Part shown: positions 1,202 to 3,803 of the stretch, in pieces | How the letters are laid out: each line of letters begins with the position of its first letter | How positions within the stretch are numbered: the first letter of the stretch is position 1 | DNA from: Granulicella mallensis | Lineage (GTDB): Bacteria > Acidobacteriota > Terriglobia > Terriglobales > Acidobacteriaceae | Direction: 5' to 3' | DNA length: 64,000 bases | NCBI RefSeq assembly: GCF_014203225.1 | Contig: NZ_JACHIO010000015.1 | Coordinates: 62,001-126,000 of the forward strand | Program-made: the position numbers and the translations under genes | The notes under the pieces: generated by a model | What the model saw: the letters and a program-made list of their open reading frames with translations, nothing else | Databases searched by the model: none | Told to the model about the DNA's origin: nothing

Positions 1202-2269
1202 TCAGGCTTTTGCCGCGATGGCTTCGGTGGCTTCCGCCTCGCGGGCGAGTTGCTCTCCGTCCGCCTTGACGAAGTATTCGTCCATCAACACGGCGATCAG
1301 GGCGGCGGTCGGCACGGAGACGAGTGCGCCGGGGATGCCTGCCAGAGCTGTGCCGGCCAGCAATGCGACCAGTACGGAGAGTCCCATCAGGTTCACGCTG
1401 GTCTTCATGATGCGTGGTGTCAGGAAGCCGTTTTCGAGCTGCACATAGATCCCATAGAAGATGAAGACCCCGAGCATCTTCGACCAGGAGTCGAGCGCGG
1501 CCACGCTGGCCACCAACAGAATGGTGATGACGCCGCCGGCGACGGGAATGATGTTGAAGAGTCCCATCAGGACGCCCAACAGAACGAAGTAGCGCACATG
1601 CAGTGCGCCGAAGACGCAGATGCTGGTAATGCCGAGGATCAGCATCAGAGCGCCCTGCCCCAGCAGCCACTTGCTCATGCGATGCTCGGCCGTGATCAGC
1701 GTTTTGGCCAGGCGCGTGCGCTCGGAGGCAGTGAAAAAAGAGAGGAAGTAATAGTAGGCGTATTCGCCCTCAAGCATGAAGTAGATGCAGAGGATGAAGG
1801 CGGTAACAATATCGAGGATGCGCTTCATCCAGAGTGGAAGCGAGGCGAGGAGATAGCTTGCGACCGAGGAGGCAAGATCCTCCGAACGCTGGGCCAGGGA
1901 ATCGACGCCCAGTTTATCGGCCATCGGCAGCTTGTGCAGCCGGGCGACGAGGTCGGGGATGCGCTTGGGCAGATCGGCGGCGAAGCGCTGGATGTCATGC
2001 ACCACGGGCGGCAGACCGACGATCAGAAACAACGTCAGGGCGAAGAGCACGGTCCCGAGCAATACGACGATCGCGATGGGGCGCGAGGGGCTCCAGCCGC
2101 GAATCCTGACCCGCATGATCTGCTGTACGACCGGCATCAGAACTACCGCAAAGAGCGCGCTCACGTAGACGAGTTCCAGCACGTTGAGCAGCTTCCACGC
2201 CAGACCGAGCGCGATCAAAACTGCGAAGAAGAAAAGGATGTTGCTGCGCGTTGCACGGGACTCGCGCAC
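1202..2269 (-). CDS. AI-2E family transporter (permease)
   Basis: The 355-residue protein has seven or eight hydrophobic segments, with the long soluble loop after the second or third helix (HDIQRFAADLPKRIPDLVARL) that is typical of the AI-2E/YdiK/PerM family (PF01594). Family members move small molecules or ions across the inner membrane; the substrate here is unknown. The annotated start is a GTG without an obvious Shine-Dalgarno. The frame stays open upstream, and AAGGAG at 2343-2348 sits 7 nt before an in-frame CTG at 2335-2333, so a 22-residue Pro-rich N-terminal extension is possible. It lies alone between two repeat elements. Confidence 0.85.
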   Translation of the reverse strand: MRESRATRSNILFFFAVLIALGLAWKLLNVLELVYVSALFAVVLMPVVQQIMRVRIRGWSPSRPIAIVVLLGTVLFALTLFLIVGLPPVVHDIQRFAADLPKRIPDLVARLHKLPMADKLGVDSLAQRSEDLASSVASYLLASLPLWMKRILDIVTAFILCIYFMLEGEYAYYYFLSFFTASERTRLAKTLITAEHRMSKWLLGQGALMLILGITSICVFGALHVRYFVLLGVLMGLFNIIPVAGGVITILLVASVAALDSWSKMLGVFIFYGIYVQLENGFLTPRIMKTSVNLMGLSVLVALLAGTALAGIPGALVSVPTAALIAVLMDEYFVKADGEQLAREAEATEAIAAKA

Positions 2270-2432
2270 CTGCTTCGGCGTGAGCTGCTGCTCTTCCGGA
2301 GGCAGCGGTTGTGCGGCGGGTGGCGGTGAGATCAGCGCGAAGCTCCTTTTGTTTGCTGTGAGTTAGATGCGGGGATCAGTCTGCCAGGTGTATGAGGCTA
2401 TAGCCTATCGTACGGTGGCAGATTGCCTTTGT

Positions 2433-2611: not shown

Positions 2612-3229
2612 TTAGCTTTGCGAAAACGCTCTCAACACAGCCTCAACGGTCGCTTCGGGCGATAACGCAGTCGTATCGAGCGTGGAGTCCGCAATGCGCT
2701 CATAGTGCTTCAGCCGCGCCGCAAAGCGGGCCTCGGCTTTCTGGCGGTCGGCCAGCACGGGACGTTCCGTAGCGCCTGGCGTCGCTGCCTGCACCTGGCA
2801 ACGGTCGTAGAGGGTCGCAAAGGGCGCGGTCAGAAAGACCACCGCTGTCGCTGGAGTCTGCTCCAGCAGCAGCCGGTTGCCGAGCTCTTCGGGGGCGCCC
2901 CCGCCCAGAGCGATCACAATGCGCGAGCGGCCCAGCACGGAGGCCAGTGCTGCCGTCTCCTGCCGGCGAAAGTGTGCCTCACCCAATTGGGCAAAGATCT
3001 GCGGCACGGTCAGGCCGCAGCGCCGCTCGATCTCCGTGTCCAGGTCGAGGAAGGTCCAACCGAGCCGGTCGGCCAGCAGCGCGCCGACGGTGGATTTGCC
3101 CGAGCCCATGAAGCCGGTGAAGACGATACGGTCATAGCCGGCCGGGGCGGGGTGGTGTGCCGCAGAGGGCACGGATCGGGCTGGAGTGGGTTCGGGCACT
3201 GCTTCAAGCGTAGCGGCTGTTGCGGTCAT
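2612..3229 (-). CDS. aroK: Shikimate kinase
   Basis: The enzyme phosphorylates shikimate with ATP in the chorismate pathway that feeds Phe, Tyr and Trp. The 205-residue product shows a P-loop GFMGSGKS (39-46), the shikimate-binding DLDTEIE (62-68), FRRQE (87-91), the GGG loop (109-111) and a lid region with RPVLADR. About 30 extra Ala/Pro-rich residues precede the kinase core. The ATG at 3229 follows GGAG by 7 nt; the longer upstream open frame is leader RNA, not coding. The gene is preceded on the same strand by a leader peptide and an intrinsic terminator (3271-3420), which argues for attenuation by aromatic amino acids. Confidence 0.93.
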   Translation of the reverse strand: MTATAATLEAVPEPTPARSVPSAAHHPAPAGYDRIVFTGFMGSGKSTVGALLADRLGWTFLDLDTEIERRCGLTVPQIFAQLGEAHFRRQETAALASVLGRSRIVIALGGGAPEELGNRLLLEQTPATAVVFLTAPFATLYDRCQVQAATPGATERPVLADRQKAEARFAARLKHYERIADSTLDTTALSPEATVEAVLRAFSQS

Positions 3230-3270: not shown

Positions 3271-3303
3271 AAAAGAAAAACCGCAACCTGTTAGGGTTGC
3301 GGC
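3271..3303 (-). terminator. Intrinsic terminator in the aroK leader (attenuator stem 3:4)
   Basis: Read on the minus strand, CCGCAACC (3302-3295), a six-base loop and GGTTGCGG (3288-3281) form a perfect 8-bp stem. The run TTTTTCTTTT follows directly. It lies 41 nt before the aroK ATG, inside its transcript leader, so it must act as a conditional terminator if aroK is expressed from an upstream promoter. Confidence 0.85.
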
Positions 3304-3336
3304 TCGGTGGATTTCGTTCCGTTTCTCTGGGTTCGC

Positions 3337-3420
3337 TCAGAGAAGCACGCACGTCCGCCGGGCCGCTGGTTGCCACCAGTAGCAATAGGTAAATCGGGCG
3401 GAGGTGCAGTGCATCGTCAT
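3337..3420 (-). CDS. Candidate aroK leader peptide rich in aromatic residues
   Basis: A 27-codon open frame starts at ATG 3420 (a second in-frame ATG is at 3414) and stops with TGA at 3337. Residues 10-16 read F-T-Y-C-Y-W-W: five aromatic residues in seven codons, including tandem Trp codons at 3378-3373. No Shine-Dalgarno is visible. A weak promoter (TTGCAA at 3456-3451, 17 nt, TACCTT at 3433-3428) would place the transcript start close to the ATG, so leaderless translation is possible. The peptide would act as a sensor of charged tRNA rather than as a product. Confidence 0.6.
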   Translation of the reverse strand: MTMHCTSARFTYCYWWQPAARRTCVLL

Positions 3421-3453
3421 CGAGAACAAGGTACAGCGTGGGGTTGGATTTTG

Positions 3454-3481
3454 CAAGTGCGGCCTTTTGCTGCCGCACCTG
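3454..3481 (-). terminator. Hairpin after the ECF sigma/anti-sigma pair
   Basis: CAGGTGCGGC and GCCGCACTTG (minus strand, 3481-3454) form a 10-bp stem with one G-T pair, starting 8 nt after the anti-sigma-like stop codon. There is no clear U-run, so it may only protect or weakly terminate the message. Confidence 0.45.
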
Positions 3482-3488
3482 CAAGGAT

Positions 3489-3803
3489 TTATTCGGTCGC
3501 TAAGTGTTCAGTGCCGTTGATTCCGTCTTCGTCGCCGACGATGCCGTTTTTCAGCTTGTCCGCGATGTTCGACCAGACGGAGTCGCTCGGTTCGTGGGTC
3601 GGTTCGAAGAGACTGCGTGCATGTTCGGCAATCGTTTCCAGGTCGCTCACCAGGGCGGCGCAATCGGGGTTGGCTGCGAGGAACTTTGTAAAGCGTGGGT
3701 CTTCGCTGACTTTGCCGCCCCCGGTGGCGAAGAGGTCGGGAAGATACTCCTCGAACTCCGCTACGGTCATGGTGTCGAAGTTGACGTTCGTGAGGTCGCT
3801 CAC
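3489..3803 (-). CDS. Zinc-less anti-sigma-factor-like protein
   Basis: The 104-residue soluble protein begins four bases inside the end of the sigma factor gene (ATGA overlap), so the two are translationally coupled. The layout FEEYLPDLF, then [19 protein letters not shown], then [14 protein letters not shown] resembles the ZAS-type anti-sigma scaffold of acidobacterial proteins (C-aa-L-v-x-D-L-x-x-I-a-x-x-A). The zinc-binding H-x3-C-x2-C set is missing and only one Cys is present. There is no membrane segment. A role in restraining the adjacent sigma factor is inferred from coupling and scaffold only. Confidence 0.6.

Follow-up and report, generated by a model that had tools for sequence, protein, structure and literature searches.

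The shikimate kinase gene aroK of Granulicella mallensis is preceded by an element that we interpret as a ribosome-mediated transcription attenuator of the trp/phe type, reading all three aromatic amino acids at once; without expression data, we put the probability of this reading at roughly 87%. The anatomy of the element, its conservation and covariation, its association with particular genes, the match between its codons and the pathway and its reading frame are observed, while ribosome stalling, termination and the direction of the response are inferred. Coordinates refer to the window, that is, the whole stretch of 64,000 nucleotides analysed here. The features are as follows.

3428-3456, minus strand: predicted promoter with a −35 box TTGCAA (3456-3451), a 17-nt spacer and a −10 box TACCTT (3433-3428)
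3420-3337, minus strand: leader peptide ORF, MTMHCTSARFTYCYWWQPAARRTCVLL*, without Shine-Dalgarno sequence
3393-3373, minus strand: control codons Phe-Thr-Tyr-Cys-Tyr-Trp-Trp, read from the sequence, with counterpart stretches in relatives
3349-3407, minus strand: outer 1:2 pairing, 3407-3397 with 3359-3349, 10 of 11 pairs
3362-3383, minus strand: inner 1:2 hairpin GCTaCTGGT..ACCAGcGGC of the minimum-energy fold, enclosing Tyr and Trp codons
3355-3366, minus strand: region 2, GCGGCCCGGCGG, left half of the antiterminator, supported by sequence, folding, covariation and the permutation test
3299-3310, minus strand: region 3, CCACCGAGCCGC, right half of the antiterminator, whose last four bases open the left arm of the terminator
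3271-3305, minus strand: intrinsic terminator (3:4) with the perfect stem CCGCAACC/GGTTGCGG, 3302-3295 with 3288-3281
2612-3229, minus strand: aroK, shikimate kinase of 205 aa (PF01202, E 2.6e-38, 132 bits)

An earlier note on this DNA had described a 27-codon frame with five aromatic residues in seven codons, tandem Trp included. This frame is present at 3420-3337 of the minus strand, with Phe as codon 10 (3393-3391), Tyr at 3387-3385 and 3381-3379 and Trp at 3378-3376 and 3375-3373. The ten pairs claimed for the outer 1:2 helix are also there, as are the ten of twelve claimed for the 2:3 helix (3366-3355 with 3310-3299), and the 3:4 stem is indeed perfect; the U-run directly 3′ of it (3280-3271) is interrupted by one C. 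The statement that the 2:3 pairing consumes the left arm of the terminator holds for four of its eight bases (3302-3299) and fails for the remaining ones. In the minimum-energy fold of the window leader, the 1:2 loop contains a further small hairpin, formed around the Trp codons. This leader, 181 nt long, folds at −64.5 kcal/mol compared with −47.5 ± 4.1 kcal/mol in shuffled sequences (z −4.15; none of 200 as good), and the isolated 2:3 piece reaches a z of −4.21 (1 of 200 shuffles as good). One criterion for an attenuator, an intrinsic terminator with a U-run ahead of the structural gene, is thus met in the window, and it is also met in the family alignments. The ATG of aroK is preceded by its own GGAG. 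Directly upstream of the leader, at 4462-3489 of the minus strand, lie a gene for an ECF sigma factor (Pfam Sigma70_r2 and r4_2) and an ORF of 104 amino acids without Pfam match, which ends at 3489.

For this element we propose the following mechanism. Transcription would start at the leader ATG or a few bases from it, and the peptide would be made from a leaderless mRNA, which is itself an inference. When charged tRNA-Phe, tRNA-Tyr and tRNA-Trp are abundant, the ribosome would pass the aromatic stretch and reach the stop codon; regions 1 and 2 would pair in its wake, the 3:4 terminator would form and aroK would not be transcribed. If any one of the charged tRNAs were scarce, the ribosome would stall in the short aromatic stretch and cover region 1, and regions 2 and 3 would pair before region 4 is transcribed, so that the polymerase could continue into aroK. 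The aromatic stretch may then be regarded as an OR gate over tRNA-Phe, tRNA-Tyr and, where needed, tRNA-Trp. We infer this label from the geometry of the ribosome footprint, because region 1 would be covered wherever in the aromatic cluster the ribosome stalled. The same element, with an adjusted codon set, is proposed to act before trpB, DAHP synthase (aroF) and chorismate mutase (CM) genes elsewhere in Acidobacteriota.

Of 28 Granulicella genomes, 26 contain an aroK homologue; in the family as a whole, 292 of 300 genomes do. The leader is present at 21 of the 26 Granulicella loci (L003-L023) and absent from the other five (L024-L028), and all five of these genomes retain a leader element at trpB. 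Judged by eye, ORFs resembling the sigma factor/104-aa pair lie upstream of aroK in two of the leader-free loci (L026 and L027). Outside Granulicella, all 15 best-scoring aroK loci carry a recognisable relative of the leader (L033-L047; genus g35 contributes 14 and g67 one); aroK genes at a greater distance were inspected only where the covariance model described below matched. The core of the Granulicella leaders reads R-F-S/T-Y-x-Y-W-W/Y, with variants. Lack of conservation of the aromatic codons or of the stems among relatives had been set beforehand as a result that would refute the attenuator; both are conserved.

A covariance model built from 31 aroK leaders gave a second match, at trpB, in 11 of 13 Granulicella genomes, the one containing the window among them; in two genomes (G021 and G022) the match at the trpB site is the only one. 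Among the 11 second matches, that of G009 is weak (E 0.015) and L088 lies too close to a contig end for a gene to be assigned, while the rest have trpB downstream. At E ≤ 1e-3 the model matched 106 of 300 genomes of the family, belonging to 23 of 79 genera, and the larger part of the family gave no match at this threshold. All 40 loci taken from the family matches stand before trpB, aroF or CM; in some cases a prephenate dehydratase or DAHP synthase gene comes after CM. When up to 700 bases beyond the leader were compared in translation, the downstream gene was confirmed in 125 of 126 family leaders, the sole exception being L088, where the end of the contig is reached.

A second model, built from all four kinds of leader (aroK, trpB, aroF and CM), matched at E ≤ 0.01 in 147 of 249 genomes of the order, 66 of 200 of the class and 22 of 199 of the phylum. 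These samples overlap one another and contain the family of the window, and the totals include spurious weak matches. A further 20 loci were examined: 18 belong to the class but to other families, one lies outside the class and one comes from the family of the window; aroF or CM lies downstream in 16 and none of the genes in four. The single locus among these 20 that lies outside the class, L251, precedes CM. Only fetched loci were inspected, and the remaining matches were excluded from the gene assignments. Several matches proved to be unrelated sequence and were rejected, namely L248, L252, L253 and L255 (E 9e-5 to 8e-4), L272-L277 (E 8e-5 to 7e-3) and the weak match L094; L258, near a contig end, was left out of the counts. 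Two single loci are recorded here as side observations. L236 (G489:C4:5096-5216), from a genome of another family, is a CM leader closely resembling those of genus g51 in family f1, and as it lies on a contig of 5.6 kb, either recent transfer or a misbinned contig is possible. In L128, a selenocysteine tRNA is found at 2184-2276 (plus strand), downstream of the chorismate mutase gene.

The helices were evaluated in an alignment of 31 of the 36 aroK leaders then available (L004, L038, L040, L041 and L046 omitted). The 1:2 helix is paired in 70.7% of the cells, with a covariation of 0.252 compared with 0.134 in shuffled alignments (reached by 0 of 500), and the 3:4 helix in 94.8% (0.238 versus 0.131; 0 of 500); for the 2:3 helix the values are 82.1% and 0.124 versus 0.089 (1 of 500). 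A larger alignment comprises 113 of the 126 leaders (omitted: L183, L158, L004, L085, L093, L040, L039, L042, L036, L198, L201, L038 and L046), of which 91 passed an identity filter of 88%. Within these 91 sequences the inner 1:2 helix of the family, the counterpart CCGCTAC/GTAGCGG, is paired in 85.4% of the cells; inner 1:2 and 3:4 taken together are paired in 91.8%, with 67 doubly changed cells versus 17.4 in shuffles. The 2:3 core GCGGC/GCCGC is nearly invariant and is therefore unable to covary. Extending 2:3 in a fixed register beyond this core gave only weak support in the 91 sequences. Due to the invariant core and the unconvincing extension, a register-free permutation of the partners was performed, in which the true partners reached −18.7 kcal/mol and the permuted ones −17.1 ± 0.2 kcal/mol (0 of 2000). 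The test also gave 0 of 2000 within aroK and 0 of 2000 within aroF leaders, and it was not significant within trpB (259 of 2000) or CM (912 of 2000). Relatedness by shared ancestry inflates all of these alignment tests, covariation and permutation alike. Compensatory changes in the stems of relatives, which had been named as a check, thus appear as covariation of 1:2 and 3:4 and as an advantage of true over permuted 2:3 partners. A further criterion for an attenuator, mutually exclusive 1:2, 2:3 and 3:4 pairings supported by covariation, is met with these caveats on 2:3.

Switching was modelled on the 91 leaders by masking region 1, as a stalled ribosome would do, and by ending the transcript before region 4. 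In such nascent transcripts the probability of 2:3 exceeded 0.5 in 89 of 91 leaders when region 1 was masked. With region 1 free it stayed below 0.5 in only 58 of 91, and thus 1:2 is not always dominant in the absence of a ribosome. For the nascent window leader, masking of region 1 raised the probability of 2:3 from 0.0002 to 0.999. In the complete, unmasked transcript the probability of 3:4 was above 0.5 in all 91 leaders. Masking region 1 in the complete transcript did not favour the antiterminator at equilibrium, the mean probability of 2:3 being 0.11 and exceeding 0.5 in 6 of 91. The E. coli trp leader, folded as a control, likewise yielded 2:3 among its minimum-energy folds only in the nascent transcript with region 1 masked. 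Because the terminator beats 2:3 at equilibrium, as it does in the E. coli trp leader, kinetic control is needed, and on paper the modelled element acts as a kinetic, co-transcriptional switch. With region 1 masked, as the earlier note had suggested for each region, nascent transcripts thus behave in computation as the trp mechanism requires. The trp/phe attenuator logic proposed there is supported by this result and by conservation; termination in vivo and a response to starvation have not been demonstrated.

The layout TTGCAA-N17-TACCTT-N7-ATG in the window places the expected transcript start at about 3421-3420, at the leader ATG. Across 125 leaders a TAnnnT box lies 6-10 nt before the leader ATG in 84 (mean 7.7 and maximum 16 in 200 shuffles) and a −10 box 7-11 nt before it in 94, and a Shine-Dalgarno-like motif of the GGAG type precedes it in three; the ORFs in these counts were picked by their aromatic content. 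Due to the position of the −10 box near the ATG and the near absence of Shine-Dalgarno sequences, the mRNA of the leader probably lacks a 5′ untranslated region, being itself leaderless. Leaderless genes are known to be marked by TA-like signals some 10 bp ahead of the start, and for three Acidobacteria genomes an average of 13.3% of genes is reported (PMC3160421). When promoters were predicted blind to ORFs, in 73 of 74 leaders the first ATG 4-14 nt after the promoter shared its frame with the Tyr-position codon. These 73 ATGs occur at seven different distances, 47 of them sharing one; 17 of the 91 leaders had no usable promoter or ATG and are outside this count. An excess of differences at the third codon position was absent from the leaders of the genus (0.178, 0.330 and 0.191 at positions 1, 2 and 3), so the peptide is not visibly selected as a protein. 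All 91 leaders have their stop codon between regions 2 and 3.

The codon content follows the pathway. In 141 leaders tallied, Trp codons are present in 55 of 55 aroK, 40 of 40 trpB and 25 of 27 aroF leaders, 120 of 122 altogether, and in 0 of 19 CM leaders; Phe occurs in 141 and Tyr in 140 of the 141. Because of this contrast in Trp, the codons look like the sensor, and the criterion of a short leader ORF with control codons for the pathway product is met. The Fisher value of 1e-21 for the Trp tally ignores relatedness and is not to be taken literally. The contrast between aroF and CM leaders repeats inside families f1, f5 and f7, the exceptions being the two aroF leaders in the tally without Trp, L158 (f1) and L254 (f7). 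L183 was omitted because a wrong frame had been chosen; by eye it carries RYWRT. The later loci (L256-L271) are not part of the tally. Among them the trpB leader L256 contains Trp. For the ten aroF leaders, Trp is present in L260, L261, L263, L266 and L269, confined to the part downstream of the core in L262 and L264, and missing from L257, L268 and L271. The CM leaders L265, L267 and L270 lack Trp and L259 has one, solely as the last residue. L266 had no ATG-started ORF in the scan and was read by eye from GTG. Since some CM operons also hold DAHP synthase (L127), the term Phe/Tyr branch describes the first gene only.

Two further observations concern single codons. In the aroF leader L158 (G138) the control Trp codon reads TGA and would stop the leader peptide at the control site; an error in the draft genome or decay of the leader could explain this. 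In the aroK, trpB, aroF and CM leaders Phe is encoded by TTT in 255 of 427 codons, compared with 306 of 1061 in the longest downstream ORFs, and the codons that most often come after TTT in the leaders are ACC (63) and AGC (44). A search by eye for an extra RNA signal behind the conservation of TTTA at the Phe codon found no pairing partner; a slow-codon or pause role of the TTT bias is possible.

That one peptide reads Phe, Tyr and Trp together, as had been inferred for the window, gains support from the lack of Trp codons in leaders whose first gene belongs to the Phe/Tyr branch. It is conceivable, but in our judgement unlikely, that the attenuator senses just one amino acid and the other aromatic codons are passengers. 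The TGG-position codon lies at a near-fixed distance from GCGGC of region 2 (12 nt in 69 of 91 leaders; the other codons were not compared), and with the usual ribosome footprint a stall at this codon would place the front edge of the ribosome at the border of region 2. The second Trp of the window is only 9 nt before region 2, and we infer that a stall there would intrude on it. However, Phe and Tyr are kept in practically every leader, including all 19 CM leaders in which Trp is missing, and sensing of Trp alone would leave these CM leaders unexplained.

Much weaker is the case for a structured RNA, such as a riboswitch or a protein-bound attenuator, in which the ORF is incidental or only sets a basal coupling to translation. 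The missing signature of selection at the protein level and the strong conservation of GCGGC and GCCGC at the nucleotide level would suit such an RNA, but it accounts neither for the shared frame of ATG and Tyr-position codon, kept over varying distances in 73 of 74 leaders, nor for a Trp codon content that tracks the branch of the pathway. Rfam families, including the Trp and Phe leaders and the T-box, gave no match in the window at the gathering score, and at E ≤ 1 the five matches over six representative loci do not overlap the leader. The idea that the hairpin simply terminates the sigma factor operon upstream, where a 104-aa ORF ends close by at 3489, and that the aromatic peptide arose by chance is refuted by conservation in relatives, where promoter and leader recur jointly and the same leader precedes trpB, aroF and CM genes.

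We therefore retain the attenuator that reads the three aromatic amino acids together. Beyond what the earlier note contained, the analysis adds a multi-gene family (aroK, trpB, aroF and CM), the inner 1:2 hairpin with its Tyr and Trp codons and the probable leaderlessness. We favour, with some reservation, the hypothesis that one ancestral leaderless attenuator cassette was put, throughout Acidobacteriota, before the genes of DAHP synthase, shikimate kinase, chorismate mutase and tryptophan synthase, acting as an OR gate over up to three tRNAs that evolution re-programmed, with Trp codons lost at genes of the Phe/Tyr branch. We know of no earlier attenuator family that senses the aromatic trio; if the cassette hypothesis is true, this would be the first one known to us and, at the same time, a natural codon-swap series. 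The family offers a concrete, testable control circuit for the shikimate, Trp and Phe/Tyr genes of Acidobacteriota and a natural series for how one leader combines three tRNA signals. The series also bears on how attenuators reach different genes and on attenuation on leaderless mRNA.

The earlier note knew of no attenuator described for aroK in Acidobacteriota, and this agrees with the literature as far as the search extends: top-ranked results among open-licence papers included none for aroK or other aromatic genes in Acidobacteria, and an older paper may exist. Shared with the E. coli trp leader (trpL) are a leader peptide with tandem Trp, the mutually exclusive 1:2, 2:3 and 3:4 pairings and a 2:3 helix whose formation is limited to nascent transcripts in which region 1 is masked, as judged from minimum-energy folds for trpL and from probabilities for the window and family leaders. 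In contrast to trpL, the leaders described here combine Phe, Tyr and Trp codons, lack a Shine-Dalgarno sequence, are probably leaderless and stand before four kinds of aromatic genes. The stop codon of the E. coli trp leader lies between regions 1 and 2, whereas in the acidobacterial leaders it follows region 2 in 91 of 91. The ilv leaders are a precedent for several amino acids in one leader. To our knowledge, pheA, ilvGMEDA and related leaders do not combine the aromatic trio. The attenuated E. coli operons pheA, ilvGMEDA and their relatives share leader-peptide attenuation with the family described here (PMC1183508, accessible part). In Actinobacteria, comparison revealed leader-peptide attenuators that likewise extend classical attenuation beyond Proteobacteria; these differ in serving trp and other pathways, and that study describes no conserved structures upstream of phenylalanine or tyrosine operons (PMC1262725). 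Upstream of aroF in Acholeplasma, the uORFC-13-1 motif likewise precedes DAHP synthase and joins a terminator to a leader ORF that contains Phe codon(s); it belongs to another phylum, has its own RBS and, in the part of the source that was accessible, is linked by name to phenylalanine only (PMC8632094; no sequence comparison was made). As far as these partial sources allow, the trp and phe attenuators of E. coli come closest, together with the uORFC-13-1 motif. Mechanistically the element belongs to a known kind; new are the codon trio, the probable leaderless start, the four kinds of genes and the re-tuning of the codons.
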